DNA of 21,450 bases from a virus. The notes beneath the pieces are model-generated. The model worked only from the letters and a program-made list of their open reading frames with translations. It was not told the origin of the DNA and did no database searches. Made by a program: the position numbers and the translations under genes. Positions 2,600 to 20,849 of this stretch are shown here, piece after piece; the first letter of the stretch is position 1, and every line of letters starts with the position of its first letter. The stretch spans positions 1 through 21,450 of the IMG/VR virus record IMGVR_UViG_3300020370_000164, one strand, 5' to 3'.

Positions 2600-3627
2600 A
2601 GATCTTATTAATAACAGATCAACACTTTGGTGTTCGTAATGACAATCTTCATTTTGTTGAACACTATAGAAAGTTTTATAGTAAAATTGTAATACCTTTT
2701 ATTAAAGCATCAGGTATTAGAGAGATTATAAATCTAGGTGATACGTTTGATAAACGTCGTTCTATAAATTATATGTCTCTGGAAGCAGCGAAGGAGATGT
2801 GGTTTGATCCTATTAAAGAACTAGGATGTAACATGACTGCCTTGATTGGTAATCATGACATATATTATAAAAACACATTACGAATTAACTCACCAGAAGA
2901 GTTATTAGGAGGATATAATATAGATGTTATCGATGAACCCACTACCCGTAATTATGACGGTACTGACATTTTATTACTTCCTTGGATATGTGATGAGAAC
3001 TACGACAGAACCTTACGAAGCATCACAGAAAGTACTGCACCTGTCTGTATGGGCCATCTTGAGCTTAACGGCTTTGAAGCTCATCCAGGTCATGTGATGG
3101 ACAAGGGTATTGATATGAATATCTTTAGTAAGTTTACTAAGGTATTCTCTGGTCATTACCATACTAAATCTAATAAGAATAATTGTTATTATCTTGGTAA
3201 TCCCTATCAACTATACTGGAATGATTATGGACAAAAAAGAGGGTTCCATGTCTTTGATACAGAAACTCTACGAACTACTTTTTATAGAAATCCCTTTGAC
3301 ACTTTTCATAAGTTGTATTATAATAATGGAGTTGTACTACCGAATGAGGAAGAAGTTAAAGGAACCTTCGTCAAACTCATAGTAGAAGACAAAGGTGATT
3401 ATACTAAATTTGATTATTTTATCAGACAGCTTCAAGACATTGGACTTGCTGACCTTAAGATTGTAGAAGATCTTAGTGTTGATATAGAAGGTGGTGATGT
3501 AGTCGTAGAGACCGAAGACACCATTACTCTATTAGATAACTACATAGATGATATAGATCTTAAGGTTGATAAAAGTAATGTTAAAAACATTATGAGGTCT
3601 CTATACATGGAAGCATCTGAACTCTAA
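2596..3627 (+). CDS. 47: gp47, Mre11-like recombination nuclease subunit
   Basis: A 343-aa metallophosphoesterase nuclease, partner of gp46; the complex resects DNA ends for recombination-dependent replication. The two-metal site motifs are present in order: D8-x-H10 (ITDQHFG), LGDTFDKR with D49, GNHD at 85-88, a GHLELNG block with H154 and GHYH at 186-189. The length matches T4 gp47 (339 aa). The start overlaps the gp55 stop by four bases (ATGA). A small gene sits between it and gp46, with start and stop overlaps on both sides. No motif looks damaged. Confidence 0.95.
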   Translation: MKILLITDQHFGVRNDNLHFVEHYRKFYSKIVIPFIKASGIREIINLGDTFDKRRSINYMSLEAAKEMWFDPIKELGCNMTALIGNHDIYYKNTLRINSPEELLGGYNIDVIDEPTTRNYDGTDILLLPWICDENYDRTLRSITESTAPVCMGHLELNGFEAHPGHVMDKGIDMNIFSKFTKVFSGHYHTKSNKNNCYYLGNPYQLYWNDYGQKRGFHVFDTETLRTTFYRNPFDTFHKLYYNNGVVLPNEEEVKGTFVKLIVEDKGDYTKFDYFIRQLQDIGLADLKIVEDLSVDIEGGDVVVETEDTITLLDNYIDDIDLKVDKSNVKNIMRSLYMEASEL

Positions 3628-8597: not shown

Positions 8598-9294
8598 GTT
8601 AGTACAAGACATAGCAGTTTTACTTTCATTTACTATGAAAGACATTGAGGGTGTAAAACCTTTAGAGTGTCCTATACCAGAAGTAAAGAAAGATGATTTG
8701 TCTATTAAGAACACAATGTATACTGCACCTGGTCTCAGGAAGATACATTTAGAGTTAGCAGAATTAAAGGGAATGAAGATACTACATTCAGTATTCTTTC
8801 CTGACCCAAATTACAATCTTCCTATTTTTGGATGTGACATTGTTGCTACTGAGAAAGTAATCACTGCTGCTATCGTTGATGTATCTCCTGTACGAGGTTT
8901 TAATGAATGGGATGAGATAAGAGAAGTTAGTAACAATTTTAATATTGGTGAGAAGAGACCACTTCCATTATGGGGTGATGAAATATTCTCTCCTTATTGT
9001 AAGTTTATGCGTATTACTGAGGACATAGATATGGCAAATTTCTACTGTCTTGTTTTAAACTATCTTGGTATATATTGTAGGTTACATCAGAAAGCTATAA
9101 GAGACCCAGATTGGTGTGCAGCAATGCTTAGATATGATGACCAAATATATTATTGTGACCAACAAAGAAAGAATGATAAGACTCGTGGTATATTACTGAA
9201 GTGGTTTGATGAGGAATGGACAGATAAATATATCAATAGTGTATTATTTGATAAACCAAACTCGGATGATATAACCTATGCAGGGTGTAATTAA
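8590..9294 (+). CDS. pcyA: PcyA, phycocyanobilin:ferredoxin oxidoreductase
   Basis: A 234-aa ferredoxin-dependent bilin reductase of the PcyA branch, which makes phycocyanobilin from biliverdin. Key blocks are [40 protein letters not shown] and [10 protein letters not shown]. The catalytic histidine and aspartate (H88 and D105 of Synechocystis PcyA) match H66 and D83 here with the same 17-residue spacing, and E55 is a candidate for the PcyA glutamate (E76). That glutamate, missing as far as known from the related phage PcyX, favours PcyA. The start overlaps pebS by 8 bases and the end overlaps ndhI by 17. The product was not tested, so an altered bilin product is possible. Confidence 0.88.
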
Positions 9295-9820
9295 TTACTT
9301 AAAAGAAGTAAAGGATACTGCTAAATATCTGATACAAGGGTTAGGTGTAACCTTTGATCATATGCGTAGGAGACCTGTAACTATACAGTATCCCTACGAA
9401 AAACTAATACCTTCTGAAAGATACAGAGGACGTATACACTTTGAAATGGATAAGTGTATTGCTTGCGAAGTATGTGTCAGGGTATGTCCTATTAATCTCC
9501 CAGTAGTCGATTGGGTGATGAATAAGGAAGCAAAGAAAAAAGAACTTAGAAACTATTCGATAGACTTTGGGGCTTGCATATTCTGTGGAAATTGTGTAGA
9601 ATACTGTCCAACCAACTGTCTCTCGATGACGGAGGAATATGAACTTTCTACATTCGATAGGCACTCACTCAACTATGATAATGTCGCTCTTGGACGACTG
9701 CCCACTAATGTTACAACTGACCCCTCAGTTAGGGCCATGCGTGAGTTGGCTTACTTACCAAAAGGAAAGATGGACCCACATGAAGTACCAGACAGTGACC
9801 CAAGGGTAGCAGCAAGATGA
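9278..9820 (+). CDS. ndhI: NdhI, ferredoxin-like subunit of the cyanobacterial NDH-1 complex
   Basis: A 180-aa protein almost identical, as far as I can recall, to marine cyanobacterial NdhI, the peripheral-arm subunit carrying iron-sulfur clusters N6a and N6b that passes electrons from ferredoxin towards plastoquinone. Two complete CxxCxxCxxxCP motifs bind the 4Fe-4S clusters: C60/C63/C66/C70 and C100/C103/C106/C110. The blocks [23 protein letters not shown] and [17 protein letters not shown] are typical. Host NdhI is about 210-218 aa, so this copy has a shortened N-terminus and tail. The ATG at 9278 lies inside pcyA. Base composition looks richer in G and C than its neighbours, in line with recent acquisition from a host. 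Confidence 0.93.
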
Positions 9821-16665: not shown

Positions 16666-17124
16666 ATGTCTGAAGAAATTTTAGATGATAAGGTAGAAGA
16701 GGAAAAGAAGAGAGGTCCGTTAGGTAAACTAAAGGATGCTATACTTCCAGATCCTGAAGAACAAGCTGCTATCATTAGTACATTTGTTCGCATTACCGTT
16801 CTTGCCTGGTCGGGTGGGATCTTGACTTTGAATTATGTTGCTATACCAGGTGTACCGCAACAGAAAATTGATCCAACTTTTATAGCTTCAGTTTTTACAG
16901 GAGTTTTAGCTAGCTTCGGAATTCAGACTGCATCTAAGAAAGGTGACGGTACTATGAAGATGAACGGCAATGGTGGCGGTGCTAACGGTGGTGCTCCCCC
17001 TGTTACTGCTAAAGATATTGAGGCAATCATAGCGAAAGCTGGACCTACTCAAACAATTAGAGTTGAACAAGCTCCCTTAAAAATTGTCACAGTCTCTGAC
17101 GATAAAGAAAATTACAAACTATAG
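16666..17124 (+). CDS. 152-aa late membrane protein
   Basis: A 152-aa protein behind the late promoter. The N-terminus is acidic and charged (EEILDDKVEEEKKRG), followed by two membrane helices, about residues 36-60 (AIISTFVRITVLAWSGGILT) and 69-90 (DPTFIASVFTGVLASFGIQTA), then a glycine-asparagine-rich linker (NGNGGGANGG) and a polar C-terminal domain ending in 'TIRVEQAPLKIVTV'. Holin-like topology is possible but no lysis signature is visible. Its expression from a late promoter suggests a structural or lysis role. The TAG lies 5 bases before the next ATG. Confidence 0.78.
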   Translation: MSEEILDDKVEEEKKRGPLGKLKDAILPDPEEQAAIISTFVRITVLAWSGGILTLNYVAIPGVPQQKIDPTFIASVFTGVLASFGIQTASKKGDGTMKMNGNGGGANGGAPPVTAKDIEAIIAKAGPTQTIRVEQAPLKIVTVSDDKENYKL

Positions 17125-17128
17125 AGTC

Positions 17129-17389
17129 ATGAAATTTAATTTTAATGCAATTGCTAATGCAATAAGTGTAGCATCAGGAGTAACACTTGCTACTCTCATA
17201 GGTGTAGGAACATACGTCTATGTAAATAAGGATGCTATCATTGAAGACATCAAGAAAGATGCTATCGAATCTATTACTGGTGGTTCTGCTATCGGTGGTG
17301 CTCTTACAGGAGACATTGGAAATCCTCAAGCATCTGCACCTGTACCTCAAGGTTCTAGTCTAGGTCTTCCTGTTCCTGGCGGATTCTAA
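17129..17389 (+). CDS. 86-aa late membrane protein
   Basis: The ATG at 17129 is chosen because an in-frame ATG at 17084 would lie deep in the previous gene. The 86-aa product (MKFNFNAIANAISVASGVTL...) has one membrane helix (about residues 10-31, ISVASGVTLATLIGVGTYVY), followed by an amphipathic DI.KDAIESI segment and a G/P-rich C-terminus. The next gene begins right after its stop (TAAATG). No family recognised. It may act with the neighbouring hydrophobic proteins in the virion or envelope. Confidence 0.72.
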   Translation: MKFNFNAIANAISVASGVTLATLIGVGTYVYVNKDAIIEDIKKDAIESITGGSAIGGALTGDIGNPQASAPVPQGSSLGLPVPGGF

Positions 17390-17650
17390 ATGGATCTTCA
17401 AAAGATTGCTTCTACTGGTACAGCAGTTGCTGTAGTGGGAACTGGTGCGTTTGTCGGTGGCAATCATGTCGTTGACCAACAAACTGGTGGTCCTCAGAAG
17501 AGAGAATCTGCAAAGATAGAAATGATAAGACAGATAGTTGCAGAAGAAGTGTATCTACAACTAATCAATGCTTGGCCAAAATCATCAGGTCCAGTTAAGG
17601 GTTTGAAGATACCTTCTACAGATTATAAGAAACAATTGCCTCAAAAATAA
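17390..17650 (+). CDS. 86-aa late protein with hydrophobic N-terminus
   Basis: An 86-aa protein that starts immediately after the previous stop. A glycine/alanine-rich N-terminal hydrophobic stretch (IASTGTAVAVVGTGAFVGG) could be a membrane anchor or signal-like segment, followed by a polar region with an acidic helix (AKIEMIRQIVAEEVYLQLIN) and a basic tail. The previous gene product also begins with a short N-terminal hydrophobic segment, so the two could be a related pair, but similarity is weak. The stop overlaps the next ATG. No family recognised. Confidence 0.7.
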   Translation: MDLQKIASTGTAVAVVGTGAFVGGNHVVDQQTGGPQKRESAKIEMIRQIVAEEVYLQLINAWPKSSGPVKGLKIPSTDYKKQLPQK

Positions 17651-17943
17651 TGATGGACAACACACAATTATCTTCCTACTATGAAAAACAAGCTGCTCAA
17701 GACAGTCGGATGGCAATCTTGGAAACTAAAGTTGAAGATCTTGAAAAAGGTTTGGAAGATTTTAATAACAAAGATAAGGAAGAACTCAATCAACGATTAA
17801 GATCTATTGAAAAACAAGTCTGGGGTGCTGGTGCTGTACTTGCTGCTATACTAGCCATCGTTGGTATCATAACTCAGATGGATATGGAAGAAGATGAGTG
17901 GGATGATGAAGCAAAAATTGAACATGTGATAAATATCGCATAA
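17650..17943 (+). CDS. 97-aa coiled-coil protein with C-terminal membrane helix
   Basis: A 97-aa protein starting in the previous stop (TAATG). Residues 18-56 are a coiled coil (MAILETKVEDLEKGLEDFNN and KEELNQRLRSIEKQ), followed by one membrane helix (57-77, VWGAGAVLAAILAIVGIITQ) and an acidic tail. This layout (N-terminal coiled coil, single C-terminal helix) is that of XhlA-type hemolysin/holin accessory proteins, so a lysis role is possible, but many phage anchor proteins look alike. It is late expressed. A second hydrophobic reading frame of 38 codons starts at its stop. Confidence 0.75.
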   Translation: MMDNTQLSSYYEKQAAQDSRMAILETKVEDLEKGLEDFNNKDKEELNQRLRSIEKQVWGAGAVLAAILAIVGIITQMDMEEDEWDDEAKIEHVINIA

Positions 17944-17956
17944 TGGATACTTACCT

Positions 17957-18856
17957 ATGGATCCTATTCGTGACTTACCTAATATTACTCTCGGTGGATT
18001 TAATATTCCTAACATCGTGGTCAGGCAACAGTCCGTTAATCTTGGAGGCATTTGGATAAGGAAACCAAGGGTAAGAGATATTAGTGATGTACAGATAGCA
18101 GATGCTAGAAATTGGATGGTGCAACCTCCACAGGCAATTCCTCCTGTAGTTCCAGTTACTGTTAATGCTGGTACTCCAATAGTTAATATTCCTGGTTGCG
18201 TCAAGGTACATAAAGAGAACGCAAAGAATCCTAATAATAAAAATAAACAATTAGTTAATGATGATCCTAAACAGAATGTAGTTCTATGTGATGGTGGCAT
18301 GCCATACTATGAGCCACCTGATTACGATTACAGGGAACTTAGTTGGCAGACAGTTAATCCAAATAAAGAAGAAGTTGATGAAGGTGTTAATACAGATGAA
18401 CCTCCTGCACCCGATATAGACACTCCAGAACCTCCTCCAACAGGTCCGAATACAGCAGGTGATATAGAATGTCCTCCACCTAATGCAAGACGTATAGGAG
18501 ATTTAAATCAAGCAGGTACAGAAAAGGTTGTAGGATATAAGTTAAGTGTAGATAAAAAAATTTGCATAACAGAATGGGAGGAAGTTCCTTTTATGGAACA
18601 GTACCTCCCTAGTGTTTCTGTTATAACTACGACTGCTGGTATTGCTACTGTGGCAACGACATCGGCCCTACTTGCAAAACCCCTAGCGGATTTGATTTTG
18701 AAGGTGGTGAAACCTGCTGTGAAGAAGTTGATTGCGAAGGTGAAAGAGAAAGTCCTAAAGAAGAAACCTCCTGTTTTGTCTCGTCGGGAACGTCTGTTGA
18801 AGCAGAGGGAAGCGAACTCTGCTGTAAAAGCTGCGAGGAAGTTGAAGGGGGAGTAA
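17957..18856 (+). CDS. 299-aa late protein, proline-rich with C-terminal membrane anchor
   Basis: A 299-aa protein. The first ~60 residues have repetitive 'LGGFNIPNIVVRQQSVNLGGIWIRKPRVRD' beta-like segments, the middle is proline-rich (PPAPDIDTPEPPPTGPN), and a hydrophobic helix at about 220-245 (ITTTAGIATVATTSALLAKP) leads to a strongly basic tail (KKLIAKVKEKVLKKKPPVLSRRERLLK). It looks like a virion or envelope-associated protein of cyanophages, but no named family was recognised. The last 212 bases lie antisense to a leftward gene (18645-19655), so one stretch codes on both strands. Start at 17957, 13 bases after the previous stop. Confidence 0.78.
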   Translation: MDPIRDLPNITLGGFNIPNIVVRQQSVNLGGIWIRKPRVRDISDVQIADARNWMVQPPQAIPPVVPVTVNAGTPIVNIPGCVKVHKENAKNPNNKNKQLVNDDPKQNVVLCDGGMPYYEPPDYDYRELSWQTVNPNKEEVDEGVNTDEPPAPDIDTPEPPPTGPNTAGDIECPPPNARRIGDLNQAGTEKVVGYKLSVDKKICITEWEEVPFMEQYLPSVSVITTTAGIATVATTSALLAKPLADLILKVVKPAVKKLIAKVKEKVLKKKPPVLSRRERLLKQREANSAVKAARKLKGE

Positions 18857-19655
18857 ACTTAAGTTCTGGTAACTCGTGTTCGTGTGGTAGTATCTTTCCA
18901 CCTGGAGTTGTAACTACTACGTCTGCACAGATTGAATGGTATGGTGACTTAGGATGGAAGAATATACCAGATTTTTTGAGTTCTCCGCAATTTTTTAGAC
19001 GAGCTATTTCAAAGTCTAATCTCTTATTGGCAACTAGTTGACTAGCCATTTCTATCTGAGCATTTGCTGCTTGATGACATTGCTTCTGTAGTTTTCTATT
19101 CAATGGTATTGATAGAGTAGCAGAGAGACCAGCATTGAATGACTGGTTTGCTTTCATATCAGTACGAATAGGTTTAAACCAAGTAGGTGTCATACCTCCA
19201 CCATTATTAATTACATCAGGTATACCATCAGGAGCATCTACATCTACTTCTATCTCTATACTTGATCCATCTTCAAACCATCTATCTCCATTTGCATCTA
19301 CTCTATCATCATACCATTCTTCCCAAGGGTAGTTCTTTACACTCACTGTTTGTTTAACAGTCTTACCCTCTACATCTGTTAGGTTATATTGTGGTTCATC
19401 ATAGAAGTCCTCCCAAGGATCTTTACGTGAATCAGCAAACTGTATATAGGGAGTGAGGTTAAACGTACTACCTTGACATTGCACTCCACCACCGTAGGTA
19501 TTCGTTATGTATGGACCTTGTAAAACTTGTATTGCCTGGTTCGTTACTGAGCCAGAACTATTGGCGATAGGATTCGCTGTTGCACTTACACCCCCTACAC
19601 CTTCCGCCAGTGTGACAGGGGCAATCGCAAGATTTGATAGACATAATGCAGCTAT
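18645..19655 (-). CDS. Leftward conserved secreted/virion-type protein, start uncertain
   Basis: The frame runs to a TAG at 18645. It contains a signal-peptide-like segment (LYPIAALCLSNLAIAPVTLA then EG), a long glycine/asparagine-rich region, duplicated acidic-aromatic blocks (DPWEDFYDEP and YPWEEWYDDR), a 'QCHQAANAQIEMASQLVANKRLDFEIARLKNCG' helix, HPKSPYHSICADVV and a low-complexity S/P/Q tail. No ATG, GTG or TTG lies near the signal segment. The given start is an ATA (19655-19653) that overlaps the TAG of the preceding gene; the nearest ATG is at 19970, deep inside that gene. The cysteines and signal suggest export. The tail overlaps the rightward 299-aa gene. A real gene by composition; its start may be a sequence error, a rare start or a frameshift. 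Confidence 0.6.
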   Translation of the reverse strand: MAALCLSNLAIAPVTLAEGVGGVSATANPIANSSGSVTNQAIQVLQGPYITNTYGGGVQCQGSTFNLTPYIQFADSRKDPWEDFYDEPQYNLTDVEGKTVKQTVSVKNYPWEEWYDDRVDANGDRWFEDGSSIEIEVDVDAPDGIPDVINNGGGMTPTWFKPIRTDMKANQSFNAGLSATLSIPLNRKLQKQCHQAANAQIEMASQLVANKRLDFEIARLKNCGELKKSGIFFHPKSPYHSICADVVVTTPGGKILPHEHELPELKFTPPSTSSQLLQQSSLPSASTDVPDETKQEVSSLGLSLSPSQSTSSQQVSPPSKSNPLGVLQVGPMSLPQ

Positions 19656-20146
19656 TGGGTAAAGGTTGAAGTTGTGTCTGTGACGCTTTGTATTTGAGTC
19701 GTTCTTTGGATGATTGTTTGATTGGTCATCCCTGGTCCTTGATACGTTTGCACGAAACTGAACGCCTCTCCTGGAGTCGTTATCGTGAAGTCTGAACCTG
19801 TACCAAGGTCTAATGAATCGAAGGAACTTGTTACGGCTCCTGTTATTGCAGTGCCGTTCGTGGCTGTTGTTGCCGTTGAAGGTTGTATTGACACTGTTGA
19901 TGTGTTCACGTTGGGGTTTAATGGTTGTCCGTCGTTGGATATTCCATGGCCCGATACTGAGTATTCCCATCCTGTCCTATAATCTATAGAGTTTATTGTC
20001 TCTGTGACTGTGCTTTCAGTCTCAGTATGACTCGTCATCGAGCCCTGTTGGAAGTTGGGGACCACAGGGACCGCCATAGCAGGTGCAGCACCGACACTTG
20101 CACTTACCACAGCTATCACATATGGGACATTCTTCAACTTCATCAT
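19652..20146 (-). CDS. 164-aa leftward secreted protein
   Basis: A 164-aa protein with a clear Sec signal peptide: MMKLKNVPYVIAVVSASVGA ending AMA before VPVVPNF. The mature part is rich in T, S and G. Residues around 'WEYSVSGHGIS' and 'GEAFSFVQTYQGPG' resemble 'STYTVSGNNIK' and 'GSAFSFSESWTSG' of the 175-aa protein upstream, so the two are probably paralogues. A cell-surface or virion decoration role would fit; not established. The start is one of two adjacent ATGs (20146 or 20143). Its TAG is used by the ATA overlap of the next gene. Confidence 0.78.
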   Translation of the reverse strand: MMKLKNVPYVIAVVSASVGAAPAMAVPVVPNFQQGSMTSHTETESTVTETINSIDYRTGWEYSVSGHGISNDGQPLNPNVNTSTVSIQPSTATTATNGTAITGAVTSSFDSLDLGTGSDFTITTPGEAFSFVQTYQGPGMTNQTIIQRTTQIQSVTDTTSTFTQ

Positions 20147-20179
20147 CTTTCTTAAACAGTTTAAGTAGATTAAACAAAA

Positions 20180-20707
20180 CTACCTCACGGTAATTTCTGA
20201 TACAAATTGACCTGTAGCCGAAGTTCCAGCTCCACCAGCTGTTAAAGTCATCACACCAGCAGAGGTGATCGTACCAGCTAAGTCTCCTTTAACTCCACCT
20301 GATGACACTAAAACTGAGCCGTATGCAGGCATATCTGCTACAACACCACTCGCTACGTCTACACCAGTACCGATAGGATTTACCGCATCTCCTGAAGTCC
20401 AACTTTCGCTAAAGCTGAAGGCTGAGCCTGTGGTGTTTATATCGTATGTACCAGCATCCAATGTTGCTGCTGCAGTTACACTTGCTGGAGCAGTTATCTT
20501 ACCAAAGTGATCATCAGCAGATGCTACTTTAATATTGTTACCACTAACAGTATAGGTTGAACCTATTCTTGTACCAGAAGTGAAAGCTGCGTCAACTGTT
20601 AATTGGGTTGAAGTACTCAACCTATGAACTAAATCAGCACGAGCTGCCATTGGTGTCATCCCAAGCAACATAACAATAGGTAGTAATTTCTTCATGTTTC
20701 TTGACAT
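20180..20707 (-). CDS. 175-aa leftward secreted protein
   Basis: A 175-aa protein with a signal peptide: MSRNMKKLLPIVMLLGMTPM then AARADLVHRL, with a plausible cleavage after ARA. The mature part is small-residue and T/S/G/A-rich with beta-strand-like repeats (TITSAGVMTLTAGGAG), as expected for an exposed or fibrous protein. The ATG at 20707 follows an AGG; a second in-frame ATG at 20695 gives the same signal peptide without the first four residues. It is the first gene of the leftward three-gene unit and divergent from hsp20. No known family recognised. Confidence 0.78.
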   Translation of the reverse strand: MSRNMKKLLPIVMLLGMTPMAARADLVHRLSTSTQLTVDAAFTSGTRIGSTYTVSGNNIKVASADDHFGKITAPASVTAAATLDAGTYDINTTGSAFSFSESWTSGDAVNPIGTGVDVASGVVADMPAYGSVLVSSGGVKGDLAGTITSAGVMTLTAGGAGTSATGQFVSEITVR

Positions 20708-20849
20708 TGTTACCTAGATCTATATAGGTGATTATTACCGTCTAAATTTGTACGTTAAATCACACTTCCAAAAATCTTAAGAATGATGTTAAATAGTAGT
20801 GTCGCCACAAAGGGACACACACTAAACCTAGCTTACTTAAGGAGGAATT
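20708..20849. promoter_or_regulatory. Divergent intergenic region between leftward unit and hsp20
   Basis: A 142-bp gap holds the promoters of both directions. An AAGGAGG at 20839-20845 belongs to hsp20. CTATATAG at 20720-20727 is a near-palindrome close to the leftward start and may hold its -10. A hairpin is possible at 20799-20818 (GTGTC-G-CC, loop ACAAA, GGGACAC) but it has no U run. TTAAATA at 20789-20794 resembles, without matching, the late motif. No promoter is assigned firmly. Confidence 0.4.

Follow-up and report, generated by a model that had tools for sequence, protein, structure and literature searches.

What might a T4-like cyanophage gain from a leftward unit of three genes whose products are predicted to be exported? 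The question is raised by the 21,450-nucleotide stretch analyzed here (the window), positions 1 to 21,450 of IMG/VR virus record IMGVR_UViG_3300020370_000164. It represents part of the genome of a T4-like cyanophage (Kyanoviridae), and its closest isolate is Prochlorococcus phage P-SSM7. The unit includes: (i) gene 1 (20180..20707, minus strand; T4-GC 237, phrog_564), (ii) gene 2 (19652..20146, minus strand; T4-GC 236, phrog_650, Pfam DUF6322) and (iii) gene 3 (18645..19970, minus strand; T4-GC 235, phrog_848/1755), which encode proteins of 175, 164 and 441 amino acids, respectively. Sequence comparison establishes predicted export signals, the paralogy of genes 1 and 2, the conservation of the unit, an overlapping start of gene 3 within gene 2 and a module shared among cyanophages. 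Based on topology, synteny, late-type promoters and the distribution of lysozyme, the unit could well be one half, the exported one, of a module for late envelope disruption (lysis) in marine cyanophages.

Hydropathy, A-x-A sites and conservation served as the criteria for export signals. Genes 1 and 2 encode ordinary N-terminal Sec-type signals (a hydrophobic stretch followed by an A-x-A site), in agreement with the original prediction, which was made from the letters of the window. That prediction also gave the third product a signal-like segment; the segment is present, but it is not N-terminal and instead occupies residues about 103-122 (19605..19664, minus strand; ending in VTLA/EG), such that its coding sequence spans the end of gene 2. 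The segment lies about 100 residues into the protein because gene 3 starts inside gene 2. Gene 3 thus encodes an overprinted basic leader (residues 1-102), the hydrophobic segment with its A-x-A site, an ectodomain with four cysteines that are invariant across myoviruses and podoviruses, and a low-complexity tail. Among relatives the sequence of the segment varies, while its hydrophobic form and A-x-A-type end are kept. By comparison, the mature N-terminus of gene 2 (VPVVPNF.QGSMTSHTET) is almost invariant, and 42 % of this protein is S/T/N/Q.

The proposed relationship of the first two proteins, noted earlier from shared YSVSG and AFSF motifs, is upheld by profile-profile comparison (hhalign 97 %, E = 8.5e-11, over the YSVSG...AFSF region), where single-sequence BLAST gives only a hint (E = 0.59); Pfam DUF6322 matches gene 2 strongly and gene 1 weakly. 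The three genes also stand alone as predicted, with no other leftward genes in this stretch of homologous annotated genomes. Roughly 400 phage records hold relatives of each of genes 1, 2 and 3 and of GC 234, a rightward neighbor discussed below, and this conservation shows that genes 1-3 are real genes. A search of solved structures gave no match for gene 1 or gene 3, and the similarity of gene 2 to designed WD40 proteins was set aside as an apparent artefact of threonine composition.

Gene 3 is read in the -1 frame of gene 2 over 319 nt (19652..19970, minus strand). Its predicted start is an ATG (19968..19970, minus strand) made by the gene-2 codons GGA TGG and accompanied by an AGGA Shine-Dalgarno-like sequence (19975-19978, minus strand). 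The overlap was analyzed in 203 distinct loci, comprising two myovirus lineages (A, 63 loci; B, 62 loci) and a third lineage of podoviruses (78 loci). A -1-frame stop in gene 2 needs a T-ending codon followed by AA, AG or GA (a susceptible boundary), and the number of stops expected was computed from codon usage. The three lineages together have no -1-frame stop compared to about 627 predicted: 0 at 1031 susceptible boundaries in the last 100 gene-2 codons of lineage A (219 expected), 0 at 521 in the last 60 codons of lineage B (145 expected) and 0 at 1109 in gene-2 codons 10-79 of the podoviruses (263 expected). Upstream of the open stretch stops are frequent, with 175 at 407 boundaries in the next 30 codons of lineage A and 188 at 662 in lineage B; the -1 frame of the podoviruses is almost open throughout gene 2 and, thus, offers no internal contrast.

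Initiation of gene 3 inside gene 2 is well supported by these alignments, because the open frame begins at a conserved ATG, and frameshifting is not needed. All 59 resolvable loci of lineage A have the ATG within 'RTGWEY', 101-108 codons ahead of the stop of gene 2, whereas all 62 loci of lineage B have it within 'S.WTG', exactly 54 codons ahead of that stop, and the bases GG.GTGAC that precede the lineage B ATG are fixed in at least 95 %. The glycine codon that forms the ATG is GGA in 72 of 75 loci, lineages A and B included. In podoviruses, an ATG or GTG lies 68 codons ahead of the stop of gene 2 (75/78) and a second ATG at 120 codons (69/78), with the exception of P-SSP7, in which the first in-frame start of gene 3 is a GTG closer to the end. 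The alternative, in which -1 ribosomal frameshifting would yield gene 3 as a fusion with gene 2, draws on the absence of an ATG, GTG or TTG near the signal segment in nearly all relatives, and on one freshwater-type contig (L321) in which the whole open part is devoid of these codons. This route is improbable, as the -1 frame is stop-free up to a conserved ATG that is placed differently in lineages A and B, with stops resuming just upstream, the bases before the lineage B ATG are fixed and no slippery heptamer was seen in the overlap. Also rejected were a non-AUG start near the signal segment, since near-cognate codons are not conserved there, and a canonical signal for -1 frameshifting where genes 2 and 3 join, of which none was seen. 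The homolog of gene 3 on L321 (3553-4448) has a frame that is open only 31 codons into gene 2, and its lack of the usual start codons may reflect an unusual start codon, frameshifting or an assembly error.

Selection on the leader sequence itself was examined and rejected on tests of synonymous diversity and leader charge. In lineage B the overlap shows no reduction of synonymous diversity relative to the region outside it (0.513 vs 0.486), and some reduction is seen in lineage A (0.443 vs 0.571, the latter from only 4 outside columns) and in the podoviruses (0.388 vs 0.546). Leader charge is above a codon-shuffled null only in lineage B (+6.9 vs +2.4, standard deviation 2.7). The main constraint on the leader thus seems to be that its frame stays open. 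Genes 2 and 3 form a deeply conserved, predicted exported pair in overlapping frames with an internal start that differs by lineage. Annotators often mis-start or drop one gene of the overlapping pair: public annotation is without gene 3 in S-SCSM1 (L282 2979-3617) and without gene 2 in ACG-2014i (L007), S-SM2 (L096) and S-SSM7 (L088).

The window is a member of a known but hypothetical gene cluster. The counterparts of gene 1 and gene 3 in P-SSM7 are PSSM7_172 (T4-GC 237) and PSSM7_171 (T4-GC 235); gene 2 is unannotated in P-SSM7 and corresponds to T4-GC 236 in P-SSM2. The P-SSM7 annotation has GC 218, 234, 235 and 237 in the same order and orientation as the window, and PHROG matches agree; GC 219 itself has no match in the window. 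According to the main text of Sullivan et al. 2010 (PMC3037559), a cluster of these same genes (T4-GC 218, 219, 234, 235 and 237) is found in all of their cyanophages except S-PM2, is often accompanied by a 'plasmid stability' protein and is without assigned function; that main text gives no export signals, overlap analysis or podovirus link for the cluster. The gene 3 start inside gene 2, the four-part podovirus set and the lysozyme pattern were not found in the literature consulted.

A recurring set of four genes connects the unit to other cyanophages: a DUF6450 protein with two transmembrane segments, a protein with a C-terminal transmembrane segment, gene 2 and the overlapping gene 3. In podovirus P-SSP7 the tail-fibre genes are followed by 042, 043, 044, 045, a short gene and the small terminase, in that order. 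The 042 protein has a C-terminal transmembrane segment and basic tail (profile match to GC 234 of 95.6 %, E = 1.3e-8), 043 is DUF6450/GC 218, 044 belongs to the gene 2 family (phrog_650) and 045 to the gene 3 family (phrog_848/1755), overlapping 044 in the -1 frame. P-SSP10 and S-TIP37 share this arrangement, and S-TIM5, of a different myovirus lineage, has the set with its DUF6450 gene elsewhere in the genome. T7 holin and spanin genes sit in the same tail fibre-small terminase part of the genome. More tentatively, the T4-like, T7-like and S-TIM5-type marine cyanophages might share one lysis apparatus that lacks lipoprotein spanins and is formed by an overprinted, exported non-enzymatic pair with two-transmembrane and C-terminal-transmembrane partners. 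A host origin of the genes was considered and rejected; matches in bacterial records are mostly phage-like or contaminant contigs in metagenome-assembled genomes or single-cell assemblies, plus one isolate contig, and no clear host family was found among them.

The position of the genes near tail-fibre genes in P-SSP7 and near gp9 in S-SSM7, together with their beta-rich, repetitive sequence, could instead denote virion- or tail-fibre-associated proteins (e.g., adhesins) that carry signal-like N-termini. Such a role is rather doubtful, as all three genes have conserved export signals, and Sec-exported proteins are unlikely to enter virions that assemble in the cytoplasm. As far as the available text of the S-SM1 virion paper goes, GC15 and GC190, and not genes 1-3, are named as structural proteins of the cyanophage core. 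The virion proteomes of S-CREM2 and S-SZBM1 are uninformative, because both phages are without genes 2 and 3.

The timing of expression bears on two further explanations. Among relatives, 91 of 117 regions ahead of gene 1 contain TAAATA (18.4 expected from shuffled sequence) and 14 contain TATAAATA (2.0 expected); both match the published cyanophage late promoter, NATAAATA (PMC2984593). In the window, the divergent promoter region between gene 1 and hsp20 (20708..20849) has the variant CCTATATAG in place of the TAAATA of relatives, which makes the late-promoter evidence for this phage indirect. In podoviruses, the copies are found in the late stretch of tail-fibre and terminase genes. The late-type motif and late podovirus position suit a late envelope function, such as lysis, and argue against an early role in surface modification or superinfection exclusion, in which the proteins would stay in the periplasm or outer membrane to block entry or alter the surface. 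The signal sequences, the fast-varying low-complexity parts and the non-enzymatic look of the proteins would accord with exclusion, as would the absence from cyanophages of the T4 r genes for superinfection and lysis inhibition (PMC2984593). Exclusion is nonetheless unlikely, given that genes for exclusion are as a rule early and specific to a host or receptor, while this set is common to T4-like, T7-like and S-TIM5-type phages. The location of the unit beside hsp20 and pstS or psbA in many myoviruses raises the additional prospect of a periplasmic host-interaction or nutrient function, expressed with these auxiliary genes. There is little to recommend this view: the unit is transcribed away from hsp20/pstS/psbA, the neighbors differ between genomes and none of the three is adjacent in podoviruses. 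Of the earlier claims on function, export itself is supported, with signal-like segments and A-x-A sites that persist despite fast variation in three lineages, and the suggested coating of the host, superinfection exclusion and virion attachment found no specific support.

If the unit acts in envelope disruption, the spanins are the obvious comparison. The systematic survey by Kongari et al. 2018 (PMC6139136) identified neither spanins nor a known route of outer-membrane disruption in 20 Prochlorococcus/Synechococcus phages (including P-SSM7, P-SSM2, P-SSM4, Syn9, Syn33, S-SSM7 and P-SSP7), suggested that the host outer membrane may be fragile, and had not considered other topologies, e.g., a protein with a C-terminal transmembrane segment. 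The gene 2/gene 3 pair is not a spanin by definition, because it has no lipobox: none was found in any member, which excludes a classical o-spanin and counts against a lysis role. Genes 1 and 2 are without cysteine, and Cys110 of gene 3 resides in AALC, outside the consensus [LVI][ASTVI][GAS]C. Compared to an i-spanin (an N-in inner-membrane protein with one N-terminal transmembrane segment and a periplasmic domain), gene 3 presents a mixed picture: its single hydrophobic segment follows a basic leader of cytoplasmic type, and its A-x-A site predicts cleavage. GC 234 has the C-terminal transmembrane segment of a unimolecular spanin and lacks the N-terminal lipobox, and its N-terminus carries no signal. 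Like Rz/Rz1 of lambda, T7 and P2, the predicted exported pair is encoded in overlapping frames of the same strand (here a -1 overlap of 54 to about 105 codons in three lineages), the -1 frame being that of o-spanins in 116 surveyed cases (PMC6139136). The podovirus genome position further matches the T7 lysis region, and cysteines are found in the exported part of gene 3. By contrast to Rz/Rz1, the proteins are larger, gene 2 lacks an anchor, its signal being of the cleavable type, and the gene 3 leader places about 50-105 residues ahead of the hydrophobic segment. The DUF6450 protein is comparable to class II (two-transmembrane) holins in its small size, charged ends and hydrophobic peaks (residues 35-53 and 68-86), and its gene adjoins the exported pair in podoviruses; no sequence relation to a known holin family was found.

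In the proposed envelope-disruption mechanism, the DUF6450 protein would serve as a holin-like inner-membrane protein, while the overlapping frames would yield proteins 2 and 3 in a linked ratio, and the two would meet in the periplasm, perhaps with the C-terminal-transmembrane protein as inner-membrane partner. The pair may then break up the outer layers as infection ends, a job done elsewhere by Rz/Rz1 spanins, with gene 1 as a possible duplicated helper of gene 2 in myoviruses. How phages open Prochlorococcus and Synechococcus is a gap in knowledge, and the lysis of these hosts by viruses sustains a large share of carbon turnover in the ocean; the module offers four named candidate genes that can be deleted, and a knockout system is published for S-TIP37 (PMC8776855).

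The distribution of lysozyme is in part complementary to the module. PF00959 lysozyme and Amidase_2 were not found in the whole records of 9/9 module-bearing isolates, GH19 was not found in the eight tested, and PF00959 was also not found in four near-full-length module-bearing contigs; S-PM2, S-B68, S-CRM01, S-CREM2, S-CREM1 and ACG-2014f have lysozyme but no gene 3. Strict exclusion is refuted as a rule by L321 and DSL-LC02. In both of these lysozyme phages the module is no more than about 6 kb from the lysozyme, a proximity that favors a link to lysis. In L321, a lysozyme, a C39-like peptidase, a candidate lipoprotein and an exported Phage_lysozyme2 protein are encoded within about 9 kb of genes 1-3, a C-terminal-transmembrane protein and a DUF6450 protein, and in DSL-LC02 gene 3 is about 5 kb from lysozyme. 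Several other points weigh against a lysis role. The inverse association of module and lysozyme (Fisher p = 0.021, with S-CAM7 and DSL-LC02 counted as having both and S-SZBM1, Syn5 and P60 as neither) comes from related lineages and a sample that is not random; S-CAM7 combines lysozyme with a weak, unlinked gene-3 relative, and S-SZBM1, Syn5 and P60 manage with neither module nor lysozyme. No peptidoglycan hydrolase was found beside the module in the common phages, other hydrolase families not having been searched. No fold or distant homolog was recognised, and AlphaFold models of genes 2 and 3 are poor (mean predicted local distance difference test score, pLDDT, 54.6). The surroundings of the unit in the majority of myoviruses are replication and auxiliary genes (hsp20, pstS, psbA), and the authors of PMC3037559 report signs of mobility for the cluster.

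An S-PM2-type lysis locus (C39-like peptidase, lysozyme, RlpA-like protein and phrog_3316) is likewise envelope-directed and found in related T4-like cyanophages, but is enzymatic and occurs mainly in phages without the present module. In S-PM2 (L284) an exported RlpA-like lytic transglycosylase (2939-3301; PF03330, 80 bits) lies about 0.7 kb from lysozyme. Proteins of phrog_3316 have a candidate lipobox in S-PM2 (L284 3332-3730, SLSSC) and L321 (1828-2238, ALSQC), beside lysozyme and cell-wall enzymes; since S-PM2 is listed as spanin-less, its phrog_3316 protein is a possible overlooked o-spanin-like protein. An exported threonine-rich protein of 616 residues, encoded inside the lysozyme/module region of L321 (7836-9686, minus strand), looks like an outer-membrane beta-barrel or autotransporter-type protein.

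The neighbors of the unit in the window are on the plus strand. GC 218 (16666..17124; Pfam DUF6450), also present in podoviruses, is small with two hydrophobic segments and is holin-like by topology only. It is followed by phrog_568 (17129..17389; 86 amino acids with an N-terminal hydrophobic segment), for which the annotated name 'plasmid stability' looks like a misannotation, a small protein with one hydrophobic segment (phrog_22018; 17390..17650) and a coiled-coil protein with one transmembrane segment (17650..17943; Pfam DUF7201, with weak phage hemolysin-type hits). GC 234 (17957..18856; phrog_570) is proline-rich with a C-terminal transmembrane segment and a strongly basic tail, and converges on gene 3 in a 212-bp antisense overlap (18645-18856). 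This tail-to-tail overlap, also found in P-SSM7, sets the serine/proline-rich tail of gene 3 opposite the basic C-terminus of GC 234. Farther upstream (9278-9820, plus strand), the window encodes a phage NdhI, the iron-sulfur subunit of cyanobacterial NDH-1, in this T4-like cyanophage (TIGR00403, 309.9 bits compared to a curated cut-off of 302.35).

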